Under the pieces are notes generated by a model. It saw only the letters and a program-made list of their open reading frames with translations, was not told the DNA's origin and made no database searches. Shown here one piece after another: positions 1,783-58,050 of a stretch of DNA of 64,000 nucleotides (positions within the stretch are counted from its first letter, which is position 1; each line of letters opens with the position of its first letter). A program made the position numbers and the translations under genes. Source of the stretch: Gammaproteobacteria bacterium (GTDB taxonomy: Bacteria; Pseudomonadota; Gammaproteobacteria; UBA6429; Thiohalophilaceae); NCBI GenBank assembly GCA_016194635.1, contig JACQBC010000033.1, forward strand, positions 62,001 through 126,000. The letters are read 5' to 3'.

Positions 1783-3608
<1,826 letters not shown>

Positions 3609-3638
3609 AATTTTCTCCACTCATTAATCAGCTGACTT

Positions 3639-3670: not shown

Positions 3671-3708
3671 GGGGGAATACTTTTAAGTGCAGGAATACCC
3701 AAATAGCG

Positions 3709-3739
3709 CTTGACTTGGAGTTAACTCCAGCCGATAGGC
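3709..3739 (+). promoter_or_regulatory. Divergent MerR-family promoter/operator
   Basis: TTGACT (3709-3714), a 19-base spacer, and TAGGCT (3734-3739). The spacer holds a perfect 14-bp palindrome TGGAGTTAACTCCA (3715-3728), very close to the zntA/cadA-type MerR-family operator. It drives the thioredoxin-CcdA-MerR operon, so the regulator probably controls its own synthesis. The -35 elements of this and the merC promoter are 38 bases apart and point away from each other. Confidence 0.8.
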
Positions 3740-3785
3740 TGTCACACGGATAGACAACCGGCCGCACGGCTGCGAGGGTAAATTC

Positions 3786-7520: not shown

Positions 7521-7532
7521 ACCTGTAATTGT

Positions 7533-9656: not shown

Positions 9657-12600
9657 CCGCCCGTTTCCAGAAGGAAGTATTTCTGCCGTATCTCGATCTG
9701 CTAAAGAGTGGATATCGATTTCATCCGGCCTTTTCGCATGCGAAAAGGATGTGGGAGGAAAAACTAACAGCCGATGATCTGGTAAATGGCCCTTACTTGG
9801 AGAAGTCGCAGATTTACCGGGAAGGGGCCACATTCGATGAACTTCCTTTGCATGAGAAGACAATAGCAGCCATCCGCAAACGGCTTGGCGGACGCGGCCT
9901 GTGGAAACATCAAACAGACGCGCTCCAACTCGTCTTGAACGGAGAGAATGCGGTGATTGCTACCGGCACAAGCAGCGGCAAAACGCTCTGCTATCAAATT
10001 CCCATATTGGACGATTTGATTCGCAACCCTTCCGGAGGACTACGCGCGGTGATCGTTTACCCGCTGAACGCACTGGTGAACGACCAACTTACGGAGTGGG
10101 AACAGATGCTTGCTGACCATCCGCAAATTCGGTTTGCGCGATTTACGGGGCAGACGCCGGCTACACAAGAAAAGTATGAACAAAGGCTCGAATGTGCATT
10201 TGAAGAGGAATTGGCTGATCAGCCACTTAGTCAGCACGAAAAGAAACTGAAGATAAAAGAGAAATTAGCAGACCAACTACGGCGTGATCCACCGAACCGA
10301 CTCAATCACCGCGAGGCAATACGCTCCAATCCGCCGCAGGTACTTATCACAAACTTTTCCATGCTGGAGTACCTGCTCGAACGCCCCGTGGATGCCCCGA
10401 TCTTCGCGAATGCTCGGCTGAAGTTTCTCGTACTGGATGAGGCGCACGCCTATCGCGGCGTGCAAGCTACGGAGATTGCGTTTCTGGTTCGAAGGTTAAA
10501 GGATCGGCTGCAACTTGAAAACCTCGTTTGCATTGCCACCTCCGCCACGTTGGGGAAGCAGGACGATCCTGAGAGTCAGACAAAAGTGCGAAAATTTGCC
10601 TCCGAGCTCTTTGGCGAGGAGTTCCTTGCGCCGAACCCTATTTACGGAACTACCGCGGAACCATTGCTCCAGCAACCGGCCTTTTACCCGGTGCCAGATC
10701 AGTACCTGAAAGCTGTTGAGGCGCTGCGAATCATTCCCGGCGCGGACATACAGCAGCATTTGGCGGTTAATGTTCCGGCCAGTGATCTTGCCTCACTGCT
10801 TAACTATGACGGCAATCTATACCGTCTTCGAAAAGAGGTGCTGACGAGGCCCACGCTGCTGAAGGATGCCGCCAAGGCACTTTGGCCAGAAAGTCCGAAG
10901 GCCGATGAAGGGCTGGAAGCGTTTCTCGAAATCGTTGCCGCAGCAAGGGCCGATCAAACTCACGAGGATCTGTTGCCGACCCGGCTGCATTATTTCGTGC
11001 GCGCGCAGGACGGGCTGCATGTTTGCCTGCATAAGCAATGCACCGGACGCCGGGATAGGAAACCCGCCTTCTTCGTGTCACGCAAGAGTGATCCGGAGAT
11101 ACCTGAAGGCGATTGCCCAGATTGCTACCGCGCTGGCCGCAAGTCTAAGTTGGTGGAGGTTGTTACCTGCCGGAAGTGCGGTTATCTCTATGGCGCTCTC
11201 CAAGATATGGGGCCACGCCGAGCCCAGAGCTTGGATAGTGATGGCGAGCCGAAGCCCTACTTCGACTCGTTCAGTACCGAGCTGGGCTGGGTTGGTGACT
11301 CGTATTGGTCTTATTTCAGCGTGGATGATGATTTGTCCTATCCCGCACATGTTAGAGCCGATGAGGACGATGATCAGAGCGACTTGATTGCTAATCCAGC
11401 ACCATTGCAATGGTGTGTGATTTGCGGCAAGAAGAAAGATGACGGAGCCGGAGACAATTGCACCTGTGAGCAGCCACACCTGCGTACGATCAAGGTATTT
11501 CATCGGCAATGCCCGCACACGGGAAAAGCGAAAGACCACGAAAATCTGTACCGCCAAGAAAAGTCTTTGCTCACGACATGTCCGAACTGTGGCGCCCGCA
11601 ATGGCTCCGGCATCGAACCTGTACACCGGTTTCAGGAGTCCGACGACGAAATGGGACTTGCCATGGCGGTTCCGCTTGCCCATTTTCAAGTAACGATAAA
11701 AGGCTCGAATAAGTTTCCCAAGCTGTTGTGTTTCACAGATCATCGGCAACGTGCCGCGGCATTCCCATCGCTGCTCGAAGAGGAGACTTTTACACACGAC
11801 TTGGGACGCAAGATTCTTGAGATTCTCAAGGAGCAGAAATCGCTGGACTTGGTACGGCTAGGCGAGGCTCTGGCTGATGAGGAAGAACGCGACCCGCAAT
11901 TCTTCTTGCCCGTATCACGTTATCCAGACGAAGAATTAGACGCAAAGGCGAAACGCAACCTCTGGCTTGCCGAGACGTTTGCTTATTTTGGCGTGCCCGA
12001 TTCTGCCCGTGAATCGGCGGAGGATTTGGGTCTGGTGGCCGTGGAGTATCGTCTCAAAGATGCCGAAAAGTCCGATTTCAGGAATCTGCTCAGCAATTCG
12101 AATCTCACGACAGCGGAAGCCGATGCGGTTTTACAAGTTCTGTTGGGCTATGTGCGTCAACGAAAGGCGTTTACCTTACCCAAGGGCCGTGTACAACCTG
12201 ATGATCCAGCGTTTGGGTGGGTCACGGCGGACATCGCCTATGTGCTGCGCCGTGAAGGAATCAGAAATACGAATGGCTGGCTTCCCCGAATCAACAAGGA
12301 CAACACTGTTACCAGTGACAATATCGTTACCGACTATCTGCGGCGCGCGCTCTCGTTCTCACCAGACAACTCACTGAGTATCGCAGAAAAGATATGGGAC
12401 TTTCTTACTGCCCAATCATTGCTGATAGAAAGTAGAGGGAGATGGAAGCTGGATCATGAGCGCCTTTTCGTAACCAGATCAACATCACGTAACGTTTGCA
12501 ACCGCTGTGGTATCGTCACTGCTTACTCTGCAAAGAACTGTTGTCCTCGAAAGGCGTGTGAAGGAAGTTTGGAGCCTCGCTCATTTGATCTGGCGCGCGA

Positions 12601-44525: not shown

Positions 44526-46283
44526 TTATTTTGTAGGTGCGTTGGGTAACGGTCGTGTAGCGAGATTATCACCCGAGGAATGCTCCAGGGATTCGAGCGG
44601 TTTGCCGATGGCAAATCCCTGGGCATAATCAACACCGATCTCGCGCAGGGTATCAAATAATTGAGGGGCTTCGACCGATTTGGCGGCCACCTCGAGATGG
44701 AACTGATGCGCCATTTCCGTTAAATTTTTCACATGGCTGCGATTTTTTGATTCAGTGCTCAAACCACGAATCAAGCTGGGATGGATCTTTACCATCGCGA
44801 TCGACAGTTGCTCCAGATAATGCAGCGGGGAGGGCCCTAGTCCGAAATCATCGAGGATCACCACGCCGCCGAGTTGCTGGATTTTTATCGCCACGTCGCG
44901 CATTAAACTCAAGTTCTCTAGCACGGTGGTTTCGGAAACTTCAAAGCGCAGTCTGCCTTTTTGACCTGCGTGTTCCTGCAAAATCATTTCTACTTGGCTC
45001 ACCAGGTTTTTATCCTGCAAGGTCTTATAAGAAAGATTGACCGACATCCAAAGCGCAGGCTGGTGTTGCGTCAGAGGGGTGATTCTGCGCGCCGCCTTGC
45101 GGATCACCATGAAGTCGATCAAGGAACTTAAATTGCAACGTTCCGCGGATTCCAAAAATCGCCCAGGCGCGATCAGTTGTCCGTCGCGATCTTCCATGCG
45201 CAGCAAAGCTTCGTATCCATCGGTGCGTCCGGTCGCGAGATTCAACACCGGTTGGTATACAAGCAGAAACTGATCGTTTTCCAACGCGCGCCGAATTCGC
45301 GCCTCCCATTGCAGGTGCTCCTGAACGTGATGAATCTCGGTTTCCGAGGCCACGTAGAGCCGCCAGCAGCCGCGGCCGGATTTTTTGGCCTCGTACATCG
45401 CGGCGTCGGCGAGTACGGTGAGTTCGTTGGCGTTGCGCGCATGTTCGGGCACAAAGGCAAGGCCGATGCTGGCCGAAGGCTGAAAGGATTGCTTAGCAAA
45501 ATCGACGCTGGATTTGGCGAAAGTCGCCAGTAATTTATTGGCGACGTGGTGCGCCTCCTGGCCAATGGTCTCCGGCAAAAATGCCGCGAACTCATCCCCT
45601 CCCCAACGCGAGACAATATCGGTGGAGCGCAGGGTGCTGGTTAATAAGGTTGCCACCGAGGTTAGGTATTGGTCGCCAGCACTGTGGCCATAGGTATCAT
45701 TGACGAATTTGAATTTGTCGAGGTCGATAAATATCAAGGTGCCTTTTCTCTCGTAGCGGATGGCGTATTCAATCCAGCTTTCCAAGGTTTTTTGGAAACG
45801 GCGCCGATTCAGCAATCCCGTCAATGCGTCGTGATCCGCCATATAGGCAATCATCTCATTGGATTTATGCGCATCCTCCAGCGCTACTCGCAATGATTCT
45901 GTTTTTTGCCGGACCTGTTGTTCGAGCGACTCCGAAAAGCGTTGAATGCGGTCTTGCCGCATGCCGGCGATGCGGGCCATCAGACCGAGGAAAAGAGGCG
46001 CGCTGTCAATCACGTATAACAGCGGGTTCGTATGTGCCCACCGCACAATTTCGAGCAGGCCGTTTACTCCCGCGAGCGCGCCGATAAAATATAAAAAAAA
46101 CACCGAGCCCACCGGAAAGAAACAGCCGAAGATAGCCCCATAAAATGTATATTTGTTGGCCTCGCTGAATTTCCACATCGCTCTTGATTCAATTTCCTTG
46201 GGCATATTAAAAGTATAAGTCCTCCAAGTCTTGGAATAAAATTGCGCGAGGCGCCACGCGGTAAAATGCTGGCTTCTATACAA
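44526..46283 (-). CDS. Membrane GGDEF-EAL protein with an altered EAL site
   Basis: A 585-aa protein (or about 559 from ATG 46205). Two membrane helices lie near the N-terminus (FYGAIFGCFFPVGSVFFLYFIGALAG and YVIDSAPLFLGLMARI), then a coiled coil, a GGDEF domain with DHDALTGLLNRRRF and an intact RWGGDEF, and an EAL domain. The EAL domain keeps GYEALLR, VNLSY, EVSETTVL and ILDDFGLGPSPL. The later motifs KID and AEGVE read KIH and AKSVE, so the catalytic Glu (E352 in RocR numbering) is Lys. It is probably an active diguanylate cyclase with an EAL domain that only binds c-di-GMP. Confidence 0.9.
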   Translation of the reverse strand: MYRSQHFTAWRLAQFYSKTWRTYTFNMPKEIESRAMWKFSEANKYTFYGAIFGCFFPVGSVFFLYFIGALAGVNGLLEIVRWAHTNPLLYVIDSAPLFLGLMARIAGMRQDRIQRFSESLEQQVRQKTESLRVALEDAHKSNEMIAYMADHDALTGLLNRRRFQKTLESWIEYAIRYERKGTLIFIDLDKFKFVNDTYGHSAGDQYLTSVATLLTSTLRSTDIVSRWGGDEFAAFLPETIGQEAHHVANKLLATFAKSSVDFAKQSFQPSASIGLAFVPEHARNANELTVLADAAMYEAKKSGRGCWRLYVASETEIHHVQEHLQWEARIRRALENDQFLLVYQPVLNLATGRTDGYEALLRMEDRDGQLIAPGRFLESAERCNLSSLIDFMVIRKAARRITPLTQHQPALWMSVNLSYKTLQDKNLVSQVEMILQEHAGQKGRLRFEVSETTVLENLSLMRDVAIKIQQLGGVVILDDFGLGPSPLHYLEQLSIAMVKIHPSLIRGLSTESKNRSHVKNLTEMAHQFHLEVAAKSVEAPQLFDTLREIGVDYAQGFAIGKPLESLEHSSGDNLATRPLPNAPTK

Positions 46284-46405
46284 ATTGATTTTTTACGGTT
46301 TAAAGCCCTCCGCAGTATATTAGCAGCACAATAGGTCGCATGGCTGCCCGAGCATCAGCGAGGTTCAAGCCGAGAAGTGGCGAACTCGACGCGGGTGTCA
46401 GGTAT

Positions 46406-46753
46406 TTACACTAAAAACTTCCCCATACCTGGCAATGACAGAAGTATAGCCACTTGTAACCCAAAGGCTACAAGGGCCAATAAGAATGATGCTGCAAAAC
46501 TTGCATGCAGTACAAATTTATAAGTAATAACCATGGCGAGACATGCGCTGATAAAACCAGTGAATTGCCCGCCTACTAACTTATATGCACCAAAGGCCAA
46601 AATGGATCCTACAACAACCGATAAAGCACACATGGGTATTGACGTTCTTTCCGCGCCGACAAAGTTCGCCGCTAATTTTACCGGAATTGTCGTTATAGCC
46701 ATTAAAACCAGTGCGACCACCCAGAATGATGATGACTCAAAATTAAAATTCAT
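46406..46753 (-). CDS. Four-helix membrane protein
   Basis: A 115-aa hydrophobic protein with helices FWVVALVLMAITTIPVKLAANFVG, MCALSVVVGSILAFGAYKLVGG, CLAMVITYKFVLHASFAASFLLALVAFGLQVAILLSL. No family is recognised. The ATG at 46753 has AGGGAG upstream. It stands alone. Confidence 0.7.
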   Translation of the reverse strand: MNFNFESSSFWVVALVLMAITTIPVKLAANFVGAERTSIPMCALSVVVGSILAFGAYKLVGGQFTGFISACLAMVITYKFVLHASFAASFLLALVAFGLQVAILLSLPGMGKFLV

Positions 46754-46857
46754 ATAGCTCCCTCTTTTGATTATCAGACCTATCGAGATTGTAATAAAAC
46801 CCCCTTAGGAAAGCGAATTTCCATTGGGTCTGAAAATCTTCTCCATGGATATCCCGA

Positions 46858-47865
46858 TTATTTTGTCGGGATTCTTTTCGCGCGATTCCAAAAGGTATAA
46901 GAGAGTCTGACCGGCCCTTTGTTCCGATACTTGCCCTGCGTCAGACTGTCGCGCTGTATGATCAGCTCCCCCGCGGTGTTTAGGCGAAGGTAATTCGTAT
47001 CCTTCACGCCGCCTTCGGCCAACCCCGCTTGCTCGGCTGTTTTGTTTTCATCGAACACCACCGCGCCATTTTCTTGCCGGACAGTGATGGTCCGGCGGAG
47101 CAGTTCCTGGCCGTCTTTTTTCGCAATAACCAGCAGTACCCCAGGCCCGGCGGCACTGAGTTCAAATGACTTGGCGGAGAGTACCTTGTGTTGATCCTTA
47201 AAAAAGAAAATAGGCCCAAGCAATGCGCTGGTACTGGCTTCATAAGAACCGGCGAGTATCTCGGGTATAGTTTCTTGCATGAGTTTGGGCCAGTCGGCGG
47301 GCATCTTCTCTTGCCGCTCCTCAACGTAGACGCCATCCGCGATTCCGGTTGCGCCGATACCCTGCTGTGCCCGCTGGGCGCGCAATGTGTCACGATGCTT
47401 ATCAATATAGTCGCGCATTGCCACCAGGCCGGCGCGAACTATCTCCAGTTCTTTTTTGTGGTCGATTTTTGAGGTAAATCCGTTCGGCGTTGTTGCGTCC
47501 CACGCCAATACCCGGTCAATTTGCTGCATCCATTTCTGCGGATCCGCGCCCGCGTAGAGGTTGATGGGGTCTCCCATTTGTGATTGAAGCGCAGTGAAGC
47601 TGGCGGGATCGCCGGATTTATCAAGCTTGGGATTCGCCAGCAGATGAAAACGGTATCGCAACTGACCCGCATAGAACCAAAAGACCGCCTGATCTTTCAT
47701 ACCCGTAGACCATAACTGTCGTGCATACGCGTAATAGGCCGCTGGATGTTCGTTGGGCAGCCGCTGTTCGATGTCTGCGGACGAGAGATTCGCGAGGTTG
47801 TCAGCGGCCGTGGCCGACGACACAAAAAGTGACAGGGCCGAACAAAACAGCAGTGCTTGCATCAT
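46858..47865 (-). CDS. Exported protein of unknown function
   Basis: A protein of about 335 aa with a Sec signal (MQALLFCSALSLFVSSATAA) and a mainly helical mature part (AYYAYARQLWSTGMKDQAVFWFYAGQLRYRFHLLANP...). The C-terminal third is beta-rich (GVLLVIAKKDGQELLRRTITVRQENGAVVFDEN) and ends basic. It is not a family I recognise. ATG 47865 is favoured because GAGGG lies upstream and gives a normal signal peptide; the frame extends to 47949. Confidence 0.68.
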   Translation of the reverse strand: MMQALLFCSALSLFVSSATAADNLANLSSADIEQRLPNEHPAAYYAYARQLWSTGMKDQAVFWFYAGQLRYRFHLLANPKLDKSGDPASFTALQSQMGDPINLYAGADPQKWMQQIDRVLAWDATTPNGFTSKIDHKKELEIVRAGLVAMRDYIDKHRDTLRAQRAQQGIGATGIADGVYVEERQEKMPADWPKLMQETIPEILAGSYEASTSALLGPIFFFKDQHKVLSAKSFELSAAGPGVLLVIAKKDGQELLRRTITVRQENGAVVFDENKTAEQAGLAEGGVKDTNYLRLNTAGELIIQRDSLTQGKYRNKGPVRLSYTFWNRAKRIPTK

Positions 47866-48052
47866 TAAAGTATCCCTCAGGGTGAAGGTAACGTCGTTAC
47901 CAAGGACTTTGAGCGCCGCCAATTTTAAGTTTAGCTGATAGCGTCGCATTCATTTATATTAACCGAAGCCATCGCTGTTTCAACTCCCAGTATGAATTTA
48001 ATTACAAAACGCAAGAAAACCACTGCGATGTGACATGAAACAATGCGGCGTT

Positions 48053-48253
48053 TCACCGCGCCCCGCTCGAACGACGTGTTATACCAACAAAATAAAATAC
48101 GACCGCGACTGATATGCCCAGTACTCCAAAAATTATAGATTCCTCTACCATTCCCGGGCCAGCCCACCAGAAGAGAGCCGGTATTTTTCCTGAAGAAAGG
48201 ACAACAACTAACCCTAGGTATAGAAGAATCCCACCTAGCGCACCACCGGCCAC
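48053..48253 (-). CDS. Small two-helix membrane protein
   Basis: A protein of about 66 aa with two helices: GGALGGILLYLGLVVVLSSG and SIIFGVLGISVAVVFYFVGI, then RRSSGAR. The start is uncertain because no ATG is near; GTG 48253 or an upstream CTG are possible, and the frame is open upstream for about 20 more codons. It is a plausible small gene, not certain. Confidence 0.5.
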   Translation of the reverse strand: MAGGALGGILLYLGLVVVLSSGKIPALFWWAGPGMVEESIIFGVLGISVAVVFYFVGITRRSSGAR

Positions 48254-48411
48254 GAGACGGACCAGTGTCAGCTGGTTACATCGCTTCTTTTTCTTATTGC
48301 CGCGATAGTTTCAACGATAAATCATAACCTTATTGCATGACGTCAGGCGTGGGGTGTTGCGGGCTAAGTACGCCTAAGTCTATATCTTGTACAGTCGGAA
48401 AACGGTATGGG

Positions 48412-48425
48412 TTGATCCAGATCAA
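48412..48425 (+). promoter_or_regulatory. Perfect FNR/ANR box upstream of the cytochrome operon
   Basis: TTGATCCAGATCAA matches the FNR consensus TTGAT-N4-ATCAA at every position. It lies 113 bases before the GTG start of the tetrahaem cytochrome gene, which suits an activator site around -41 of an oxygen-controlled promoter. Confidence 0.8.
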
Positions 48426-48537
48426 GGCAACCTTGCGTGGGTTCAAATATATTCACCACGCATTGATTGCATAACACACGGTTTTGCCATTGACTCGGTT
48501 TCTATTTGACGGATTCAATGAAAAAAAGGAGGGTCGA

Positions 48538-49116
48538 GTGATAATAAAAAAGATCTGGCAATTCCTGCGTTCACCCACGGCAAAGTATTCCGTCGGCTTG
48601 TTGTTCGCTGTTGGTTTTATAGGTGGTATTATCTTTTGGGGTGGGTTCCATACCGTGGTCGAGGCCACGAATACGGAGGAATTTTGTATTTCCTGCCATG
48701 AGATGAAGGAGAATGTCTATAAGGAATATACCTCGACTATTCATTATTCAAATCGCACCGGAGTGCGGGCTATCTGCAGCGACTGTCATGTGCCCAAAAC
48801 CTGGGTTCACAAAATGGCCCGCAAGATCCAAGCGACCAATGAGTTGTACCACAAAGTAATGGGCACCGTGGATACTCCGGAGAAATTTGAGGCGCGCCGT
48901 TTGACGATGGCAAAGCGGGTCTGGAAAACCATGAAAGAAACGGATTCCAGGGAATGTCGAAATTGCCATCGTTTCGATTATATGAAACTGGATATTCAAG
49001 ATAAAACAGCGCGTAAAAAACATACGCGTTCTATCGAGGAGGGGAAGACCTGTATTGATTGTCATCAAGGTATAGCGCATGAATTACCTAAAGAAGAGAA
49101 TGAGGTCAAGCTTTAG
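48538..49116 (+). CDS. NapC/NirT-type tetrahaem quinol dehydrogenase (CymA-like)
   Basis: A protein of about 192 aa with one N-terminal membrane anchor (GLLFAVGFIGGIIFWGGFHTVV) followed by four CXXCH haem sites: CISCH, CSDCH, CRNCH, CIDCH. This is the NapC/NirT/CymA family, which oxidises membrane quinol and passes electrons to periplasmic cytochromes (or the reverse). GTG 48538, with AAGGAGGG upstream, is the best start. It precedes cytochrome c4 and faces the MtrA-MtrB genes, so it is the likely inner-membrane end of the conduit. Confidence 0.92.
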   Translation: MIIKKIWQFLRSPTAKYSVGLLFAVGFIGGIIFWGGFHTVVEATNTEEFCISCHEMKENVYKEYTSTIHYSNRTGVRAICSDCHVPKTWVHKMARKIQATNELYHKVMGTVDTPEKFEARRLTMAKRVWKTMKETDSRECRNCHRFDYMKLDIQDKTARKKHTRSIEEGKTCIDCHQGIAHELPKEENEVKL

Positions 49117-49147
49117 TTTTCGTTTAATCATATCTAAAGGAGATGAC

Positions 49148-49759
49148 ATGAAAAAGGCAAATAACTATTGGATTCCACTGGCGTTATCCTGCAGCCTGGG
49201 TATGGTTGCTGGTACGGCAGTTGCTGATGTGGATAAACTGATCAAGTCCTGTGCCGATTGTCACGAAAAAGATGGCAATTCCAAGAATGGGGAAACACCC
49301 AGTATTGCTGGCATGTCTTCCGGATTTTTCCTTGATTCAATAAAAGGCTATAAAAGTAATACACGCCCTGCCCTGAAACTTAAAGATAAGAAGGAAGACA
49401 TGAAAGATGTCGCCAAAAAATTATCAGATACGGATATCAAGGCACTGGCGGATTATTTTGGCAAGCAAAAATTCAAGCCCTTAAAACAGGAGTTTGATCC
49501 GGCTTTGGCCAAGTTAGGCAAACAAGTGCATAAACAATATTGCGACAAATGCCATTCAGAAGGCGGTACCTCATCTGAAGATGATGCCGGCATACTCGCG
49601 GGGCAACCCCTTGGCTATTTACGCTATAGCATGGACAATTACGCCAATGGCAAACGTGATATGGGCGAGAAAATGTCGGCAAAATTTAAAGCCATGCAAG
49701 AGAAGGTGGGTAATGATGGAATCACACAATTACTTCACTATTACGCCAGTCAACAATAA
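49148..49759 (+). CDS. Dihaem cytochrome c4
   Basis: A protein of about 203 aa with a signal peptide (LALSCSLGMVAGTAVA) and two cytochrome c domains, each with one CXXCH (CADCH, CDKCH) and a later Met ligand. The two-domain pattern (PSIAGMSSGFFLDSIKGYKSN..., then AGILAGQPLGYLRYSMDNYANG) is typical of cytochrome c4. It likely ferries electrons in the periplasm between the tetrahaem protein and the outer membrane complex or an oxidase. ATG 49148 follows an AGGAGAT site. Confidence 0.9.
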   Translation: MKKANNYWIPLALSCSLGMVAGTAVADVDKLIKSCADCHEKDGNSKNGETPSIAGMSSGFFLDSIKGYKSNTRPALKLKDKKEDMKDVAKKLSDTDIKALADYFGKQKFKPLKQEFDPALAKLGKQVHKQYCDKCHSEGGTSSEDDAGILAGQPLGYLRYSMDNYANGKRDMGEKMSAKFKAMQEKVGNDGITQLLHYYASQQ

Positions 49760-49803
49760 ATTAATTTAATTAAACCAGGGGCTGGCGGCGATGTGTATCT
49801 TTT

Positions 49804-49829
49804 GTAGGTCGGGCTTCAGCCCGGCCTAC
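49804..49829 (+). repeat. REP-like hairpin
   Basis: GTAGGTCGGGC-TTCA-GCCCGGCCTAC: a 26-base imperfect palindrome with a GTAG end and a 4-base loop. This is the shape of extragenic REP sequences linked to REP-associated tyrosine transposases. It lies between two convergent genes. Confidence 0.75.
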
Positions 49830-49884
49830 CCGGTCAGGAAGTGATATTAAATATCGTGGACAGGAATTCGGAACAGTTATTTAG

Positions 49885-49913
49885 AAAACCACGGAGAAAA
49901 TCCGTGGTTTTTT
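49885..49913. terminator. Bidirectional terminator
   Basis: AAAACCACGGA-GAAAA-TCCGTGGTTTT, an 11-bp perfect stem with a T run on the right and an A run on the left. It can end both the cytochrome c4 transcript and the minus-strand MtrB-like operon. Confidence 0.9.
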
Positions 49914-49926
49914 GTGCCTGTAACTT

Positions 49927-52035
49927 CTAGAAGTTGTACCGGAGTGTCAACCAGAATACGCCGATTTTGTACGTCGGTGGTGTATTGCCAAAAGTCAATA
50001 CGTTACTCAACGTAGCCGGTGCAACATTATTGATGTACCAATTGTCCTCCATATATTTTTCATATTGATAACTGGCCTTCAGGGTAAACTTTTCATCAAT
50101 AGTATAATCGGCGCGCACCATGATGGTGTCGCGTTTGGTTGTCAGATCAGGAAATGGACTACCAAGACTGATGTCAATGGCGGCGTTGGATTCGGCGTGC
50201 ACGTAATCCAGGCCGAGCTTGAGTTTGTTTTTGATAATCAGATAGTCGCTGCCAAGTCCAACGGTTAATATTTTATCCTTATTATTGGCCGTCCAGTCCG
50301 GTGTCGAGAATGCCTGACTGCCTACTTGTTGCGATTTGATCTGGGTATTATGGATGAACCCAGTAAAACTCACATTTTTGTTAACCATATACTGAATATC
50401 CAGTCCTGCCGAGAGCTCATCACTTTGCGTCAAACCGATGGTGGTGGCGTCGTAATTATATTGGGCTATGTCACTTGAGAAATTTAATATAACGGCATCG
50501 GTTGCCGTATACGTCAAGTTAACGTCAATTTTGTGGCCTTGGCGGTCGGTGATGTTGTATTTGCGCATCAGAGGGTTGTCAGCAGGTGTGACTTCGCTGG
50601 CAACATTGTAATTGTCGATTGTGCGGTCACTAAATTCGGCTTTTAAACTATAGTGCAGTTTATTATCAATGCGATGTTTGAGCTTCGCCCAGAGATTTGC
50701 TTCTGCTGTCGATTCAACAGATTGGTAATCGCGATCAATAGTTGACAATTGCCCGCCACCACTTAGCTTTACTTGATTATCAAATTTGTAATCGGTGTTT
50801 AGCTTTAATTTCTGCTGACGAAAGCCATAGGGAAAGTTGGCGCGTGGTGTACTGGTTACTGCATTATCCGCCGTCACATAGGTGTAGGTATTTCGCGCCG
50901 TGGAATTATCCTGTTCATGGTGTTCATAGATAAGGTGCCAGTCTTGCGCGGAACTATATTGCCAGTGAGCAGCCAGATTGGTATTGAACACCGCGACCTT
51001 GCCCTTTAAAGAATGCTGCGGTAAGGCTGGTGGTGTTAGATCACTGTTCACGCTATAGGGCAAAAAGGCCTCGTCTTGTTTCAGCAGGGCGTAGGAAAAC
51101 AGTCCGGTGAACTGCACATTCTTAATTCCAAAATAATTTCCGGTTAGCAGGATTTGTTGCTTGCTGTTATCCGGTTCTGTGCCCGCCTGGCCTTGTGGCG
51201 CACCGGTTGGCGTGTCATAGGCATTCTCCCAACGCAAGAACGTGTTCGTGTTTTTAAAGTTGGAATTGATTAAAGCGACCTGGCCACTAAAATCAGCATA
51301 ATGATAATTTACTTTCAGTTCGATATCGTCGGTGGAGTAATCAATCGGTTTGGAAAGCATCGCAGCGCGATCAAAACCAAAACTATACGCCGTGGGTTGA
51401 TTGCCCTGCTTGGTCTGACGTTTAAACCAGACTTCATAGGACCATTTTGTGGATGAGATATATTCCCCTCCCAAAGTAAAGTGTCGGCGCTGGGTGGAAA
51501 AATTTACCTCGTGTAGGCCGGTGGCAAGTGTCGTAAAACCAGCGGTGTTGGCAGCGTGTACCCAACCCGCAGGTAAGGTCTGGATCGAATCACCGCTATA
51601 GGGCGTGCGGCCGGTATCCAGGTTGTAGCGGGTGATTTGATCCATCTCCAGATTGAGTTTGTATTGTCCCTGCCGACCACCTTCTACTCCGAACGAAGGT
51701 GATTCCAGGCCAACATTTTGGCCGCGAATATCCCAATAATTTCTTTGATTATCCCGGTAACGGGCATTCAGATTGCCATCAAGATTGAATCCTCTCTCGT
51801 TTAATCCATTATATTCACCAAACTTGTAAGAATTGTTGCTGACATATCCCAAGCCGAGGCTGAAATAGCCTTCCCATTGTTTTTCGGTAAGGTCAGCGCA
51901 ATATTTACATTTCCAATTCTTCTTAATCGTCTCAATATCAAGCGTATCATCGGTTTGCGTCTCGGCGAGTACCGGCAAGGCGACAAATCCCATCAAATAG
52001 AGCAGGGCAAGATGTACGTAGCGTGTTTCTGTCAT
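49927..52035 (-). CDS. MtrB/PioB-family decahaem-associated outer membrane barrel
   Basis: A 702-aa outer membrane protein (Shewanella MtrB has 697 residues) with a signal peptide (LALLYLMGFVALPVLA). The N-terminus carries a CXXC pair (KCKYC, Cys 43 and 46), a feature of MtrB/PioB proteins. About 26 beta strands with aromatic ends follow, ending in FWLTLRYNF. MtrB forms a sheath around the decahaem MtrA so that electrons cross the outer membrane. The mtrA-like gene lies directly upstream in the same operon. Confidence 0.93.
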   Translation of the reverse strand: MTETRYVHLALLYLMGFVALPVLAETQTDDTLDIETIKKNWKCKYCADLTEKQWEGYFSLGLGYVSNNSYKFGEYNGLNERGFNLDGNLNARYRDNQRNYWDIRGQNVGLESPSFGVEGGRQGQYKLNLEMDQITRYNLDTGRTPYSGDSIQTLPAGWVHAANTAGFTTLATGLHEVNFSTQRRHFTLGGEYISSTKWSYEVWFKRQTKQGNQPTAYSFGFDRAAMLSKPIDYSTDDIELKVNYHYADFSGQVALINSNFKNTNTFLRWENAYDTPTGAPQGQAGTEPDNSKQQILLTGNYFGIKNVQFTGLFSYALLKQDEAFLPYSVNSDLTPPALPQHSLKGKVAVFNTNLAAHWQYSSAQDWHLIYEHHEQDNSTARNTYTYVTADNAVTSTPRANFPYGFRQQKLKLNTDYKFDNQVKLSGGGQLSTIDRDYQSVESTAEANLWAKLKHRIDNKLHYSLKAEFSDRTIDNYNVASEVTPADNPLMRKYNITDRQGHKIDVNLTYTATDAVILNFSSDIAQYNYDATTIGLTQSDELSAGLDIQYMVNKNVSFTGFIHNTQIKSQQVGSQAFSTPDWTANNKDKILTVGLGSDYLIIKNKLKLGLDYVHAESNAAIDISLGSPFPDLTTKRDTIMVRADYTIDEKFTLKASYQYEKYMEDNWYINNVAPATLSNVLTFGNTPPTYKIGVFWLTLRYNF

Positions 52036-52074
52036 AACCGTTCTCCCGTCTTTCTGGTATAGAGCGCTATTTTG

Positions 52075-53037
52075 CTAACGTAACAATTTAATGCCGGAGG
52101 GATGATTGCTACCATGCACTTGTGAGTGACAGTTCAAGCAGCTTTTCCCTAACATAAACTGATTCGGTGTGCCGGCAGGTAAGCCGCTGCCTGAATAGGC
52201 AACGCTGGGATGACCCGCGGCAGCGTGACAGGATTGACACAATAAGGGCGGTCGCTTTTTTAAAAGCGCCGGATGTAAGGAGCCGTGCGGTGAATGACAC
52301 AACATGCAATCTTCGGCAACCGGCGCATGCGTCCATAACAGGGGGCCGCGCTTTTCCGTATGGCATTTATAACACAATTCATTTTTATAGGTATTTCTAA
52401 CCAGATTATCTGAGAATGATCCATGTGGATTATGACAATCGCTACAACGCATTTTTCCGTAGCGAATCGGGTGTGCGGAAGCGCGATTAAACTCAGCGCG
52501 TTGATTAATATGGCATGACATACATTTTTCCGTTTGTGCCCGGCTATCACGCATTGGATCCTGCCTGGCATGAATGACGTGACAACTGGCGCAGGCTATA
52601 GATTCTTTTTCATGTGAACTGCCTGGCCAGTTCATGCGCTGCAGATCATTGTGGCAACTCAAACATACACCATTCTGTTCTGCGACGGGCGTCCAGGCTT
52701 TTGCACCAAAGGCACGGATCGGCGCCTTCTTTTCGCCTTTCTTCACCTCAAATTGATGCTCACCCACCGGGCCGTGGCAGGTTTCGCATTGCAGCTTGGC
52801 CATTGGTGAACGGGGGTCATTGCGTTCGCCGTGTTTGGTTTTAAAGATCGGCAGCACCGGATAGACATTATCTTCGTCATGACATTTTAAACAGGTATCC
52901 GCTCCTTTAGAGGAATAGGCTTGACTCGTAATTGGTTTTTCACTGCTGTCAGCGGCCAAGCTGTTTTGCGCGAGCACAATCGACAAAATAATCAAACTTC
53001 GCAACGATGAACGAGAATGGCGTGGGTTAATTTTCAT
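52075..53037 (-). CDS. Decahaem cytochrome c of the MtrA/DmsE/PioA family
   Basis: A 320-aa periplasmic protein with a signal peptide (LRSLIILSIVLAQNSLA) and ten CXXCH sites (CLKCH, CETCH, CLSCH, CASCH, CMSCH, CSDCH, CYKCH, CMLCH, CQSCH, CLNCH). The MtrA-type spacing and GSSHE, NPHGSF, HSPHGS segments are clear. It inserts in the MtrB barrel and connects periplasmic carriers to the cell surface. Direction (metal reduction as in Shewanella or Fe(II) oxidation as in Sideroxydans or Rhodopseudomonas) cannot be read from sequence. Confidence 0.94.
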   Translation of the reverse strand: MKINPRHSRSSLRSLIILSIVLAQNSLAADSSEKPITSQAYSSKGADTCLKCHDEDNVYPVLPIFKTKHGERNDPRSPMAKLQCETCHGPVGEHQFEVKKGEKKAPIRAFGAKAWTPVAEQNGVCLSCHNDLQRMNWPGSSHEKESIACASCHVIHARQDPMRDSRAQTEKCMSCHINQRAEFNRASAHPIRYGKMRCSDCHNPHGSFSDNLVRNTYKNELCYKCHTEKRGPLLWTHAPVAEDCMLCHSPHGSLHPALLKKRPPLLCQSCHAAAGHPSVAYSGSGLPAGTPNQFMLGKSCLNCHSQVHGSNHPSGIKLLR

Positions 53038-53083
53038 AATTAATGTCTTTTTATGCTGTGCCCCGGCTTTCGCCGGATAGATT

Positions 53084-53443
53084 TTATATCTTGGGAATGG
53101 ATTTCAGATATGCCTTCAGATCAGCCACCCGTTGCTCCGGAACATTGTTAAAAGCCAACATCATAGTAAAGCCTGATGTTGTGTCATAGTTACTCATGTT
53201 CATCGCGATCATGTCGTGCCGCTGGGCCAAATCAGACGCACCAAATGCGGTTGTCGTGTCATCCGATCCGGCCTTGTGACAAACAGCGCAATTGCTTTGG
53301 TAGTACGTCAAGCCATCTTTCGCGACACCCACGGGTGGCGGTTGTACGGCGGGGGGTGGCGGTGTTTCAGAACCACTCTCAAAGCAACTTGCTAATGCAA
53401 TGCTCAGTGTAACCATTGATACTACTGTTGTTAGCTTTTTCAT
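53084..53443 (-). CDS. Monohaem cytochrome c lipoprotein
   Basis: A protein of about 119 aa with a lipobox (LSIALASC), a Pro-rich linker (ETPPPPAVQPPPVG) and one haem domain with CAVCH and a Met-rich distal part (HDMIAMNMSNY...FTMMLAFNNVPE), giving the Met ligand. Its length fits a small class I c-type cytochrome tethered to the outer or inner membrane. It lies between the PKD multihaem protein and the MtrA-like gene, so it may bridge them. Confidence 0.87.
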   Translation of the reverse strand: MKKLTTVVSMVTLSIALASCFESGSETPPPPAVQPPPVGVAKDGLTYYQSNCAVCHKAGSDDTTTAFGASDLAQRHDMIAMNMSNYDTTSGFTMMLAFNNVPEQRVADLKAYLKSIPKI

Positions 53444-53503
53444 GGTACTCACCATCCTTATAAATTTATTTCAGATCATCAGTTTTTGATCATCTGGCCT
53501 CAC

Positions 53504-55189
53504 TCAATCGCCGCCGCCATTACCGCTTGATAAGTAGGTTGCAATGGCCTGCTTCTGGCCAGGCGTGAGAGAGATTGAATTCATTAACGGCACTCCGTTA
53601 ATAGCACTGGTAATTGAGCTGGTACTTACACCTCTCACACTTTCATAAGTGCCGCCTCGACCACCCACACCGTGGCAAGATGAGCAATAGCTGTTGTAGA
53701 GGCCCTCGCCCGTCGTTGGTACTGGCGTAATACTTCCCAATGCCGTGGCTATCGCCTGGATCTGGGTTGCCGTTAATCCACTGAGTGATCCCATCACGCC
53801 ACCTGCGTTGCCCGCGATGGCCGTCTGAATCTGCGCCGCCGTGCGATTCAGTTTGGTGCTGGTCGCCAATGCTCCATGACAACTCTGGCAATTGTTGGCA
53901 TACAGCGTCGCACCATCGGTAGCGGGTGGTGGCGGTGTAGTACTGACTAGCGCATCGGCAATCGCTTGTACTTGTGTGGGTGTTAAACCATTAAGCGTAC
54001 CCATAACGCCACCGGCATTGGTATTAATTGCCGTCTGGATCTGCGTGATGGTGCGGTTCAGTTTGGTGCTGGTTGCCAGTGCTCCATGACAACTCCGGCA
54101 ATAAGTGGCATACAAGGCAGCACCGTCTGTTGGCGGCGGCGGTGGTGTTGCACTGATAACGACAATGGTACTGGCTACGCCGGTAATATTTTTGGCGTCC
54201 TGTACAGCAAGCGTGACGGTGTACGACGAACCCGATGCAAAGGTATGGCTGATGATAGGAGTGGCCGCGGCCACTACCGGAGAGCCATCACCGAAATCCC
54301 AGACGTACCGAACAATGGCTTCAACGTGGGTTGAAAGTGAGCCGTCAAAATTCACCGGCTGGCCAGCCGTGCCGGTGTACGAAGCACCGGGATCAGCAAC
54401 CGGTATCATCACACCGCCCACCGTAATATCTTTGAAAGTAGTGTGCGTGAGATTGTCGCTATCGGTAACCGTCAGGGTAACCGTATAGACACCTGCGGTG
54501 GCAAAGTTATTAATCGCATGCGCGCCACTTGCGGTTTTGCCGTTGTCAAAATTCCATGTATATTGGTTGATGATGCCATCGGGATCATAGGAAGCCGAAC
54601 CATCAAAGCTCACCGTCGCGCCGATCTGGGCAGTCATTGGCGCGTGAATCACTGCGGTGGGTGGTTGCGGAGCGGTGTTCGAGACAGTTACTGCAGTCGC
54701 AATGTTAGCAACACCATCTCCGGTAGTACTGCTATTCGCATTGGTTGAGAGGCCCGCGCTATATATAACATATGAACCCAGGGAGGCTGGGGATTGCCAG
54801 GAAAAATTCCAGGTGACAGTGCCATCAACCGCCGCCGTTGCCCGTGCGGTGTGGGTAAGCTCGCCGACCTGTAATTTGGTATTCGCAAGCGTACTGATCA
54901 GGGTACCCGAACTGGCGCTGATATTCAGGCCACCTGAATTCTGCTGCCCACCTGAAATTGTCAAAGTGTAGTTGTTGATGGTACCGGGTCGAACAACGGT
55001 TGGTCCACTCAGATTGATGGACGGCGCTACCCCACCCGAGTGGCAAGTCGCGCAGGTATTACCTGTATTGGTCGCTGGATTACCAGAATAACCAATGATA
55101 CCACCGCTATACCCGACTACCGGCTGGCTGCTAGCAAAGCCCAGTGTAAAGATGATGACGTTCGCAAGATTTCTTATGTTATTCTTCAT
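53504..55189 (-). CDS. PKD-domain protein with four haem-binding sites
   Basis: A protein of about 561 aa with a signal peptide. An N-terminal domain (about 20-170) of the choice-of-anchor V type carries one CATCH near residue 46. Two PKD domains follow (VSFDGSASYDPDGIINQYTWNFDNG and VNFDGSLSTHVEAIVRYVWDFGDG). The C-terminal third has three cytochrome c units with CRSCH, CQSCH and CSSCH. The first two units are near-identical 73-aa tandem repeats (GALATSTKLNRT...GVMG.L.GLT). PKD domains are usual in extracellular proteins, so this may be the surface component that replaces MtrC or OmcA. Confidence 0.88.
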   Translation of the reverse strand: MKNNIRNLANVIIFTLGFASSQPVVGYSGGIIGYSGNPATNTGNTCATCHSGGVAPSINLSGPTVVRPGTINNYTLTISGGQQNSGGLNISASSGTLISTLANTKLQVGELTHTARATAAVDGTVTWNFSWQSPASLGSYVIYSAGLSTNANSSTTGDGVANIATAVTVSNTAPQPPTAVIHAPMTAQIGATVSFDGSASYDPDGIINQYTWNFDNGKTASGAHAINNFATAGVYTVTLTVTDSDNLTHTTFKDITVGGVMIPVADPGASYTGTAGQPVNFDGSLSTHVEAIVRYVWDFGDGSPVVAAATPIISHTFASGSSYTVTLAVQDAKNITGVASTIVVISATPPPPPTDGAALYATYCRSCHGALATSTKLNRTITQIQTAINTNAGGVMGTLNGLTPTQVQAIADALVSTTPPPPATDGATLYANNCQSCHGALATSTKLNRTAAQIQTAIAGNAGGVMGSLSGLTATQIQAIATALGSITPVPTTGEGLYNSYCSSCHGVGGRGGTYESVRGVSTSSITSAINGVPLMNSISLTPGQKQAIATYLSSGNGGGD

Positions 55190-55311
55190 AACACCCACCC
55201 TATCGTTATTCTGTCATCGAGGTACTACCAGACGCTGCTATCGCATGGTTGCCATGACTTCAACCGATCTTATCTTCGCTTTCTTTTTACACGCATTTCA
55301 CCCAGGATTAA

Positions 55312-55325
55312 ATGATCTAGATCAA
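55312..55325 (-). promoter_or_regulatory. FNR-type box upstream of the multihaem operon
   Basis: On the minus strand TTGATCTAGATCAT differs from the FNR consensus TTGAT-N4-ATCAA in one base. It lies 123 bases before the start of the PKD multihaem gene, first of the minus-strand cytochrome operon. The facing operon has a perfect box at 48412. Confidence 0.65.
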
Positions 55326-55457
55326 AGTAGTTTCCTACTCGCTACTCATACAGAACAACAGGTCAAATCAAACACCACTAGCTATTCAGCTATCTTAACT
55401 GGTGTTTTAGCCTGTACTTCCTCTATTCGACGCGCCTTTTCCTGATTTATACTAAGG

Positions 55458-56030
55458 TCACGGTGCATTTAGTGCATCCAAATGCGCTTTAATCTCCGCT
55501 ACAAACCTCTGGTACTGCCCCTCATTCATAAAATGCGCTAATTCCTTGCAGGCGCTGCTGGCGATATTGGTATGCATTTTGGCGTTACGGCTATCACCTT
55601 GTCTGGCACACCTGAGGGTTGCATAAATATGTTCCCATGTACTGTGCTCAAGTTTTTCTATAATTCCTGGATATAAACCAGCCCCATTACTTCTAGCTTT
55701 GAAATATGTTGATAGTTCTCCAATATTCTCTTTATTAATCACGTGCAAGTCAGTGACGGAGGGTTCCACGCTGGTTAGCGGGCGAGTAGTCGCATTGCTG
55801 GGCGGGGGGCGACGAATCATGGATAATTTAGGTTCGGCCCCGGCCTTATAAAGAAATTTATCGGCACATTTCAATAAAAATGGATTGATGTCTTGGCTAC
55901 AGGATTTTATGGCATGATAGGACTGTTTATGGTATCTATCCGTGCGAATATGTATCACACTCAGCACTAACCTTGCATAGAGTAGCTGCAATTCTCGAAT
56001 AAATGCGCTGTACCATAATATGGTTTTCAT
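55458..56030 (-). CDS. Hypothetical protein
   Basis: A 190-aa protein with a hydrophilic, helical composition and no signal peptide. Seven Cys or Cys-near-charged positions (SCSQD, LKCADKF, LRCARQ, SACKEL) are spread through it. I recognise no family. Its place just beyond the multihaem operon gives no clear clue. Confidence 0.5.
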   Translation of the reverse strand: MKTILWYSAFIRELQLLYARLVLSVIHIRTDRYHKQSYHAIKSCSQDINPFLLKCADKFLYKAGAEPKLSMIRRPPPSNATTRPLTSVEPSVTDLHVINKENIGELSTYFKARSNGAGLYPGIIEKLEHSTWEHIYATLRCARQGDSRNAKMHTNIASSACKELAHFMNEGQYQRFVAEIKAHLDALNAP

Positions 56031-56424
56031 CGTGGCTGGCTAACCCTGGAAGTCGGACCTACTCCTGGCCCTCCGAGTACTTATGCGGCATCTGAATAAA
56101 GCGCTTGGGCCAGTTTCGGCGTTGATAGCAACCTGCGCCTGCCTGTGTGTGTTTCCACAAGAAACCGGCAGTCTGCTGCGTCACTTAATCAATAATATAT
56201 TTACACCAAATTGACTCGTGCGTACTCCACAACCACGGTTATTCTTAAGTTTTGTTGATCTCACTCAATATCTTTTTAAATTCTATCTTGGACCTGCGAT
56301 CATCGCAGGACTATGAGTTGGACAATGCGGCATACGCGCTCTTTTTAGGACCTCTATAAAATCGGGGGTAGGGAGGGGTCACATTATGTTTTTTCCGCAA
56401 ATTCCAAATTGAACGCGCCATTTA
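56031..56424. other. 394-base gap with an FNR-like site
   Basis: No gene seen. A TTGATCTCACTCAA sequence at 56255-56268 matches 9 of 10 positions of the FNR consensus, but it is about 225 bases from the nearest downstream start and may be chance. A Gly-rich purine tract (GGGGGTAGGGAGGGG) lies near 56365. Confidence 0.4.
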
Positions 56425-57036
56425 TCAGCGCCCGGGTCGATTGAAACGCTTGCGCGCGCTTTCCACTTTGGCCCTGATCACGCAGTCCTCCACATGATCG
56501 TTGATCAGCCCCATCGCTTGCATGAAGGCATACACCGTGGTCGGTCCGACGAATTTCCAGCCCAGCTTTTTCAAATCCTTCGACAAGACCAGCGATGCCG
56601 CCGAGGTTGAGGCGGTCTGTGGTTTAGCACGTTGCTTGGTGTCGGGTTCGTAACGCCAGATGAAGCTTGCCAGCGAGCCTTCCTGTTTGACGAGTTTCTG
56701 CGCCTGTCGCGCATTGTTGATCACCGCCTCGATCTTGCCACGGTGGCGGACGATGCCTTCATCCTTGAGCAGACGCGCGAGGTCGCGTTGTGTAAAGCGC
56801 GCTACCCTGTCAAAATCAAAATCGTGGAAAGCGGCGCGGAAATTCTCGCGCTTGGCGAGGATGGTGCGCCAGCTCAATCCGGCTTGAAAACCCTCCAGAC
56901 ACAATTTCTCGAATAAACGATGATCGTCGCTAACCGGAAAGCCCCATTCGCTGTCGTGGTAGGCTAGAAACTGCGGCGCGGCCGCGCACCAGCGGCAACG
57001 TGATTTACCGTCGGGTCCCACTATGGTTGTGCTCAT
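56425..57036 (-). CDS. tag: DNA-3-methyladenine glycosylase I
   Basis: A protein of about 203 aa with the Tag family motifs RCRWCAAAPQFLAYHDSEWGFPVSDDHRLFEKLCLEGFQAGLSWRTILAKRENFRAAF, GIVRHRGKIEAVINNARQ and KKLGWKFVGPTTVYAFMQAMGLINDHVEDC. These hold the zinc-snap Cys and His and the base-recognising aromatic residues. It removes 3-methyladenine from alkylated DNA. The start ATG 57036 removes a long unrelated N-terminal extension. Confidence 0.96.
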   Translation of the reverse strand: MSTTIVGPDGKSRCRWCAAAPQFLAYHDSEWGFPVSDDHRLFEKLCLEGFQAGLSWRTILAKRENFRAAFHDFDFDRVARFTQRDLARLLKDEGIVRHRGKIEAVINNARQAQKLVKQEGSLASFIWRYEPDTKQRAKPQTASTSAASLVLSKDLKKLGWKFVGPTTVYAFMQAMGLINDHVEDCVIRAKVESARKRFNRPGR

Positions 57037-57079
57037 CTGTTTATTGTTCCTGTATTGAAAATAGGAGAGTGAAGCGGAC

Positions 57080-57367
57080 TCAGCCGAGCAAGAATTGCAG
57101 TTGTTTATCGGCTCTTGACGGCGTGATTTCAAGAATTTCCGCGTTGACCACATGTTCCGTTACAAATGGATCAGCGTTTACCCTATTTTGTAGCGCTGAC
57201 AGGGAGGTATTGTGTGCCACTATCCCACCGCCCAAATTAGGTTGAAGACCGCCAACCAGTAAAAACACACCGTCATCAAACCCGCGTTTGATCCATGCGT
57301 TGTGGCCTGCCATGTATTGGCTGGCTTGGGCTTTATTGTCAGAAAATTTAAGCAGTACGATAAACAT
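57080..57367 (-). CDS. YciI-family protein
   Basis: A 95-aa protein with the YCII fold: FIVLLKFSDNKAQASQYMAGHNAWIKRGFDDGVFLLVGGLQPNLGGGIVAHNTSLSALQNRVNADPFVTEHVVNAEILEITPSRAD. The His in GHNAW and Asp in DPF are the conserved pair of the family. Enzyme role is undefined. It lies in an operon-like run with tag. Confidence 0.9.
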   Translation of the reverse strand: MFIVLLKFSDNKAQASQYMAGHNAWIKRGFDDGVFLLVGGLQPNLGGGIVAHNTSLSALQNRVNADPFVTEHVVNAEILEITPSRADKQLQFLLG

Positions 57368-57444
57368 CGGGCGTGTTCTCCTAAATTAAATCTGAACGTG
57401 ATGGGCCGAGTACTCCGCTTACACGCACGCCAGGGTGAAACGCA

Positions 57445-58050
57445 CTAGCGCGTCCCGCGCGTGTTATGTGCCATGCGCGCGGTGTCTTTCGTGCAGGCTT
57501 CCAACCAGTCGTACAGCTGCTTCACTTCCCGCTGGATGAATTTCTCATCGTGAAAGGCATGGACCAGCGTGGCGATACCCTGGCTGCGGGCAAGAAGATG
57601 CATCGCCAGTGTGTCGGCATCGGCCTTGCGGCCGAGCAGCGTGAATTGTCTGCGCAACCAGGTTCTAAACAGCGTAAATAGCCTATTCGCCTCGGCTTGC
57701 GAGGCGTGATTCAGTTTGGCAAGCTCAGTGCATAACGTGCCCACCGGGCAGCCGTAGTGTTTTATTTTGGCCCGGTTCGCGATCAGCATATGGATAAAGC
57801 TGCGGATGCGATCCGCGGGCTGTTTGCCTTCGATTTCCCACTGCCGCAACATCTTGCTGGTATGCGCCAGACGCAGATTAATCACGGCCTCCAGGATTTC
57901 ATCCTTGGATTTGAAGTGGTGGTAAAAATTGCCGCGCGAGATTCGTACGGCCTGCGCGATATCCGCGAACGAGGTAGGCTCGAAACCTTGCCGATAGAAC
58001 AACTGATCGGCCGCTTCAACAATGTGATCGCGTGTGGTCTTATCGCTCAT
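57445..58050 (-). CDS. TetR-family regulator beside the old yellow enzyme
   Basis: A 201-aa protein with an N-terminal TetR helix-turn-helix (DHIVEAADQLFYRQGFEPTSFADIAQAVRISRGNFYHHFKSKDEILEAVI) and a helical ligand-binding domain containing HYGCPVGTLCTEL, where the Cys residues may sense electrophiles as in NemR. It overlaps the last 11 bases of the old yellow enzyme gene upstream, so both are made from one message, and probably represses them through the paired operators at 59181-59224. Confidence 0.9.
   Translation of the reverse strand: MSDKTTRDHIVEAADQLFYRQGFEPTSFADIAQAVRISRGNFYHHFKSKDEILEAVINLRLAHTSKMLRQWEIEGKQPADRIRSFIHMLIANRAKIKHYGCPVGTLCTELAKLNHASQAEANRLFTLFRTWLRRQFTLLGRKADADTLAMHLLARSQGIATLVHAFHDEKFIQREVKQLYDWLEACTKDTARMAHNTRGTR

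Follow-up and report, generated by a model that had tools for sequence, protein, structure and literature searches.

The stretch of DNA analysed here (the window: 64,000 nucleotides, positions 62,001 to 126,000 of contig JACQBC010000033.1 in the gammaproteobacterial assembly GCA_016194635.1) encodes a candidate conduit for extracellular electron transfer, whose six genes form two convergent arms (Table 1). On the forward strand lie genes for a CymA-like and a PdsA-like cytochrome; facing them on the reverse strand are those for a PKD-domain cytochrome (PKDc), a monohaem lipoprotein (LipC), MtrA and the MtrB barrel. The CymA-like protein carries four CxxCH haem motifs, the dihaem protein two, MtrA ten, LipC one and PKDc four, and the haem-motif DNA pattern has 24 matches across the window (5.2 expected), two of which fall outside the locus. 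An earlier note on this DNA had proposed these six genes together with two FNR-type boxes; open reading frames (ORFs), motifs and family matches confirmed all of them where it had placed them. Between the arms lies a hairpin that is probably a bidirectional terminator, and a search for RNA families across positions 46000-58000 returned none at the gathering threshold.

Table 1. Positions of the genes, domains and regulatory features of the locus. The likely starts (GTG 48538, ATG 49148 and ATG 55189) were taken from ribosome-binding sequences.
Feature	Position	Strand	Remarks
FNR-type box TTGATCCAGATCAA, head of CymA-PdsA arm	48412..48425	+	0 mismatches
-10-like hexamer TATATT, class II FNR spacing	48448..48453	+	
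CymA/NapC-like membrane tetrahaem quinol dehydrogenase (predicted)	48538..49116	+	reading frame open from 48484; AGGAGG precedes the likely GTG start
PdsA-like periplasmic dihaem shuttle (predicted)	49148..49759	+	ORF open from 49079; likely ATG after AAGGAG
Hairpin with A/T flanks, between convergent arms	49882..49914	.	-19.1 kcal/mol, z -6.6
MtrB/PioB outer-membrane barrel, N-terminal CKYC	49927..52035	-	TIGR03509; 6r2q_B E 3.5e-78
MtrA/DmsE decahaem cytochrome	52075..53037	-	TIGR03508; 6r2q_A E 2.3e-94
LipC, monohaem class I lipoprotein, unnamed family	53084..53455	-	lipobox LASC, recognised by eye
PKDc: signal peptide, choice-of-anchor V haem head, two PKD domains, three class I monohaem modules	53504..55189	-	ORF open from 55198
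Three PgcA-like haem modules of PKDc	53519..54136	-	CxxCH, Met 28, 28 and 30 residues after His
Choice-of-anchor V head of PKDc	54704..55135	-	numbering from 55198
-10-like hexamer TAAAAA, class II FNR spacing	55284..55289	-	
FNR-type box, perfect TGATCTAGATCA core, head of PKDc-LipC-MtrA-MtrB arm	55312..55325	-	1 mismatch; core recurs in relatives

MtrA and MtrB, encoded by adjoining genes, both exceeded curated cut-offs, MtrA with 305.4 bits against 192.2 (DmsE/MtrA, TIGR03508) and MtrB with 404.5 bits against 240.05 (TIGR03509), and each matched a chain of 6r2q, the Shewanella MtrCAB structure. An N-terminal CxxC is a feature of MtrB, and it is present in the window's protein as in 37 of the 43 MtrB sequences listed. 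Inspection by eye of the window's translated ORFs of at least 120 amino acids showed neither DmsA nor DmsB, which would indicate a DmsEFAB system. In gene content the predicted conduit is of the MtrAB kind. Its usual partner OmcA/MtrC, which the earlier note had reported missing, gave no TIGR03507 match at E 1e-5 in the window's genome; among 40 genomes of the family there were five weak matches, none reaching the cut-off.

The CymA-like protein belongs to the NapC/NirT family (PF03264, 260 bits against a cut-off of 24.1) and has an N-terminal hydrophobic stretch, read from its sequence; we predict that it serves as the quinol dehydrogenase supplying MtrA. At E 1e-5 the genome gave no second NapC/NirT match. 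Since, moreover, NrfA gave no match there and all NapA matches fell under the cut-off (best 148.6 against 930.55 bits), no other partner for it was evident among those sought. The dihaem protein, previously labelled cytochrome c4, proved closer to PdsA, so that the c4 identity was not borne out: it matched NF049874 over its full length with 163 bits, below the cut-off of 330, and is therefore a relative of PdsA and not a member by NCBI's rule. Six related loci (L020-L024 and L027) keep the CymA-PdsA pair together with MtrAB.

LipC, PKDc and their relatives

The PKDc modules place the protein close to PgcA of Geobacter sulfurreducens. Their best matches in the Protein Data Bank (PDB) were 8qjg (E 3.6e-15) and 8qj6 (E 3.0e-14), the next best reaching 2.7e-6. 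These are the structures of PgcA domain II (ligands His365/Met392) and domain I (His274/Met301), which sit on flexible linkers and for which electron transfer by tethered diffusion has been proposed (PMC11520253). Respiration of Fe(III) oxide is impaired when PgcA is deleted, and PgcA homologues differ in their number of haems (PMC5732950). PKDc has the corresponding tandem class I domains, homologous to PgcA I/II and each with a Met ligand candidate. Across the relatives described below, this Met lies 25-34 residues after the haem His, except at one close pair of haem motifs in L028 and another in L038, and the number of modules ranges from one (L025) through three (the window) to ten (L021 and L023). 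Because PKDc has neither a lipobox of its own nor long (PT)x linkers, its linkers being of the type STTPPPPATDG, we do not file it as a PgcA; it may nonetheless act like one.

In front of the modules, the head of PKDc scored 134 bits against a cut-off of 42 for choice-of-anchor V (NF041895). Residues C49, C52, H53, H116 and W130 are invariant in 14/14 heads, with CxxxCH in L029, which suggests a bis-His haem domain. Two PKD domains follow in the window's protein, and one in those of L029 and L043. An AlphaFold model of PKDc, with a predicted local distance difference test score (pLDDT) of 76.6 and a predicted template modelling score (pTM) of 0.38, has beta-sandwich domains ahead of three modules of four helices each, the relative placement being uncertain. 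Among the 50 fold-search matches listed for either search there was no PgcA domain, PKD and Ig-like folds filling both lists; the homology of modules to PgcA is one recognized by sequence comparison and not by fold search. Cytochrome f was considered as the fold of the head via a match with Z 9.4 and a root-mean-square deviation of 3.3 over 126 aligned, and was rejected, as generic Ig-like folds did equally well; the likeness found no sequence support in profile or Pfam searches, which leaves it an idea only. Strong assembly collapse of the repeated modules was likewise rejected by a check that covered modules 1 and 2 of the window's PKDc: 149/210 bases are identical, the longest shared run is 17, and there is no Tandem Repeats Finder array.

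In LipC, the lipobox Cys24, the CxxCH motif and Met99 are common to all 13 aligned members. A LipC profile found relatives in at least 4 of 369 genomes of the class, a lower bound as no more than 11 candidates per genome were scored, and all four lie beside PKDc and MtrAB. Viral contigs yielded no LipC relative, and plasmids a single record, a PKD match. The LipC of L029 and that of L043 contain a bacterial Ig/cadherin-like domain, which favours a location at the cell surface, and L028 and L038 encode a fusion of a LipC-like lipoprotein head with haem modules. A structure model of LipC was poor (pLDDT 55.5) and was not used.

A genome scan with MtrA gave 53 loci (L020-L072), mostly from metagenome-assembled genomes and mostly gammaproteobacterial. 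A PKDc-type protein lies beside MtrA in 14 of them (L020-L029, L038, L043, L067 and L071), all in metagenome-assembled genomes whose titles read Gammaproteobacteria, Ectothiorhodospiraceae or Acidiferrobacteraceae; the contigs of L022 and L026 hold no more of it than the last modules, and in the part seen of L028 and L038 a lipoprotein head and haem modules occur with no PKD domain. An ORF with at least seven haems was found in the fetched stretch of 29 of the 53 loci, and nine of ten such ORFs tested were OmcA/MtrC over the cut-off, L035 being the one that was not. The two types never occur together (0/53); where one genome has both, that of isolate Ww183, they stand in separate loci (L043 and L048).

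The 13 PKDc-type sequences in each tree form a single group together with L039, with support 97/87 for MtrA and, for MtrB, 100 in the Shimodaira-Hasegawa-like approximate likelihood ratio test (SH-aLRT). The nearest neighbours of this clade in both trees are MtrCAB-type loci such as those of Aeromonas, with weak support (82/87 and 87). L063 was left out of the MtrA tree, L062 and L063 out of the MtrB tree, and loci with a cut MtrA or MtrB out of both. Within the family, MtrB of the window's type is present in six genomes (G000, the window's own, G001, G006, G020, G027 and G032), which are the identical six with strong PKDc matches; in G009 the MtrB is divergent and PKDc found no match. Seven further genomes of the 40 had weaker matches to PKDc, some over PKD domains only.

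PKDc relatives also occur elsewhere. The PKDc of L020 is without a head, and a PKDc head is found on another contig of the same genome, G001:C12, beside a second MtrAB; the two may be one broken gene or two. On that contig (L124, 3-6445; same genus as the window) a monohaem protein, MtrA, MtrB and CymA precede the PKDc head, which is cut by the contig end, and an FNR-type box of the same form as those in the window, ATGATCTGGATCAA at position 1813, accompanies the head; the MtrB of L124 falls outside the PKDc clade. A third setting is a multihaem cluster in G008, G026, G031 and G003 (L110 7772-11161, L111 7110-10811, L112 and L114), which are not among the 14 genomes with an MtrB match. Two whole PKDc relatives there have 1130 and 1234 amino acids with 11 and 12 haems. 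In G008 (L110) the cluster comprises a 3-haem protein, an NHL propeller, 18-, 21- and 12-haem proteins and a SPOR/TPR protein.

Three further observations were made in the course of this survey. In L035, L040 and L041 a protein of eight to nine haems, divergent from MtrA and, in L035, not OmcA/MtrC by TIGR03507, adjoins PdsA and is perhaps another substitute for MtrC. L052, titled Woesearchaeota archaeon, holds a gammaproteobacterial-type MtrA and the start of an MtrB, and is probably a mis-binned contig. In the window's genome (L122, contig G000:C3, 8835-12933), adjoining genes encode proteins of 21 and 29 haems, with no PKDc match there; the smaller in haem number is a relative of G008's 21-haem protein.

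FNR-type boxes at the heads of the two arms

A promoter under FNR control has TTGATnnnnATCAA centred near -41.5 and a -10 element. Both arms show this layout relative to a predicted start site, the first box being perfect and the second one mismatch away, as the earlier note had stated. The raw number of boxes is weak evidence, with seven matches at one mismatch or fewer in the window against 2.65 expected. Perfect TGATnnnnATCA cores number three in the 64 kb; two of them lie at the two operon heads, and the third, at 49055, was set aside as probably coding because it spans codons of a CymA haem motif and recurs there in L020.

More telling is the recurrence of the core in relatives. Perfect TGATnnnnATCA cores precede CymA in 5/6 loci (window included) and PKDc in 6/13, against 11/309 for other genes and 3/61 for the other upstreams of close-clade loci; none was found in 13 LipC and 15 MtrA upstreams. 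Fisher p values of 1e-6 and 1e-5 serve as guides, as the sequences are related. The core is absent from the CymA upstream of L027 and from the PKDc upstreams of L020 (where the head is missing, counted as a miss), L025, L027, L028, L029, L038 and L043, those of L025 and L027 having one mismatch each; PKDc of L022 and L026 and CymA of L022, at contig edges, were left out of the counts. Each of the 11 perfect-core boxes comes with a hexamer that agrees with TATAAT at four or more of its six bases, within two bases of the class II position, as do 13% of random positions, a null that includes coding DNA and so speaks less strongly for the promoters, as AT-rich promoters score better by chance. Since the cores recur in relatives and come with a -10-like hexamer at class II spacing, we take the boxes to be beyond chance.

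A regulator is at hand. Chosen by its helix pattern from 8 of 9 sites with a Crp-type helix match, a protein encoded in the genome has a CxxC-x5-C motif, a cysteine in VCEIPF and an ETVSR helix; we take it to be an FNR orthologue, judged against E. coli FNR. With boxes, spacing and regulator all in place, the suggestion that FNR controls the arms has gained ground, and both are probably induced by FNR when oxygen is lacking.

Proposed electron route and rival readings

We consider it likely that the locus encodes an anaerobically induced MtrAB conduit which ends in a PgcA-like string of tethered haems on a PKD stalk. Electrons from quinol would enter at CymA, be ferried across the periplasm by the PdsA-like dihaem protein and pass through the outer membrane by way of MtrA inside the MtrB barrel. 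There, two proteins would replace MtrC: LipC as the anchored first surface acceptor, and PKDc, which would be secreted, putatively by a type II system (the genome has a type II secretin, 588 bits). The tandem, proline-linked modules of PKDc would then hand electrons outward by tethered contact, in the manner proposed for PgcA, to a mineral or another extracellular acceptor. The parts for an inner-membrane-to-surface path, listed in the earlier note, are all there, and relatives retain the gene set; the note's idea that the PKD protein stands in for MtrC is backed by the mutual exclusion beside MtrA, the single clade in two trees and the homology of the modules to PgcA.

The direction of flow is open to a rival reading. 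We favour outward flow because of the FNR boxes and the PgcA homology; two matches to the RuBisCO large subunit in the genome, from an organism that may thus be an autotroph, keep electron uptake alive. The chain would then run inward, with Fe(II), minerals or other donors being oxidised and electrons passing from PKDc and LipC through MtrA, PdsA and CymA to the quinone pool, as in Mto and Pio. MtrAB conduits are reversible, and the gene order of the second locus of the same genus, with its PKDc head after CymA, recalls mto. We nonetheless regard inward flow as unlikely: the boxes point to anoxic expression (with which anoxic Fe(II) oxidation would still be compatible), among solved structures the modules are closest to PgcA, a protein of Fe(III) oxide reduction, and in its tree the window's MtrB falls with loci of the MtrCAB type (support 87), the mto-like MtrB lying elsewhere.

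Less probable still is that MtrAB works on its own, as MtoAB and PioAB do, and that PKDc and LipC have an accessory part outside the main current, for instance as adhesins or stress-related cytochromes. PKD and Ig-like domains are common in adhesins, and PKDc relatives exist without MtrAB; the shared operon, the exclusion of MtrC-like proteins, the linkage of LipC, the PgcA homology and the conserved haem ligands all speak for a part in electron transfer. That the CymA-like protein is a general NapC/NirT donor with MtrAB as an incidental neighbour is very improbable, since, close as it comes to scoring as a member (297.6 against 310.6 bits), it is the sole NapC/NirT match in a genome with no NrfA match and NapA matches under the cut-off, and its pairing with PdsA beside MtrAB recurs in the six relatives.

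Several observations weigh against the tethered-haem conduit that we prefer. Four sister-clade PKDc upstreams have no perfect FNR core. The modules resemble PgcA domains I and II, which did not bind akaganeite (PMC11520253); domain III, which did, is represented by 8qk0, and this structure is absent from the 11 PDB matches of the modules at E 0.01. All 14 PKDc-type loci come from metagenome-assembled genomes, and L039, inside the clade, has no PKDc nearby and no multihaem protein beside it either. LipC could face the periplasm, and MtrA might, by analogy, discharge directly, given that MtoAB and PioAB work without MtrC. Finally, PKDc is not tied to this MtrAB, as relatives occur in genomes with no MtrB match and beside a second MtrAB; its presence in other clusters therefore argues against an exclusive role with MtrAB and for a general one at the surface.

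Known systems and other features of the window

MtrCAB accompanied by CymA and PdsA is known from Vibrio natriegens and Aeromonas. We found PdsA beside MtrCAB in the fetched Aeromonas loci as well, and pdsA and cymA have been described next to mtrCAB (Baker 2022, PMC8805035). The present locus shares MtrA, MtrB, a PdsA-like dihaem and a CymA-like tetrahaem protein with that system; it differs in lacking MtrC, in having PKDc and LipC beside MtrA, and in a PdsA-like protein below the curated cut-off. With PgcA (PMC11520253, PMC5732950), PKDc has in common tandem class I monohaem domains, proline-containing linkers, a similar His-Met spacing and a haem number that varies among homologues. What sets it apart is the choice-of-anchor V head, the PKD stalk, short linkers, the want of a lipobox, its encoding with MtrAB, up to ten modules, and no domain III among the 11 PDB matches. 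MtoAB and PioAB likewise combine MtrA and MtrB homologues without MtrC, to which this locus adds a surface candidate, a PdsA-like shuttle and FNR boxes. A Methylobacter cluster also joins MtrAB to monohaem proteins with no MtrC homologue (PMC13322032), whereas its inner-membrane part is a monohaem protein, and its main text mentions neither PKD nor PgcA. Among the titles and opening lines of abstracts listed from the open-access literature searched, none described a PKD protein or PgcA-like modules at MtrAB or in MtrC's place, and word searches within individual papers turned up neither term. CymA-PdsA partners beside MtrCAB and MtrAB without MtrC are already known; a PgcA-like PKD protein as the putative terminus in the place of MtrC is, within that literature, new.

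These comparisons suggest that the surface end of such conduits is exchangeable. Going further, we see an even chance that the MtrAB terminus is a replaceable module: that one gammaproteobacterial clade swapped MtrC for LipC and a length-variable PKDc haem string, with relatives at an Mto-like conduit and in a third cluster, that the head is a new beta-sandwich haem domain, and that electrons exit by contact between beads and not through a fixed decahaem stack. The accepted surface partner of MtrAB is MtrC, and a survey built on its presence would overlook these loci. A non-homologous replacement at the same conduit shows which features of the outer end are required and which can change, lets tethered haem wires be compared with fixed ones in natural systems, and carries the range of PgcA-like modules beyond Geobacter to organisms with MtrAB; as module number varies from 1 to 10, reach against rate could be tested with natural variants.

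Two other regions of the window were noted. Positions 5981-14503 hold an RmrA-like XRE/peptidase gene, a 707-amino-acid protein without a PADLOC match and a DruE-like helicase of 1619 amino acids, a possible Druantia-like defence locus. At 1783-5757, a reductase-like flavoprotein, a small membrane protein and a MerR-type regulator, judged from their translations, look like a mercury resistance set.

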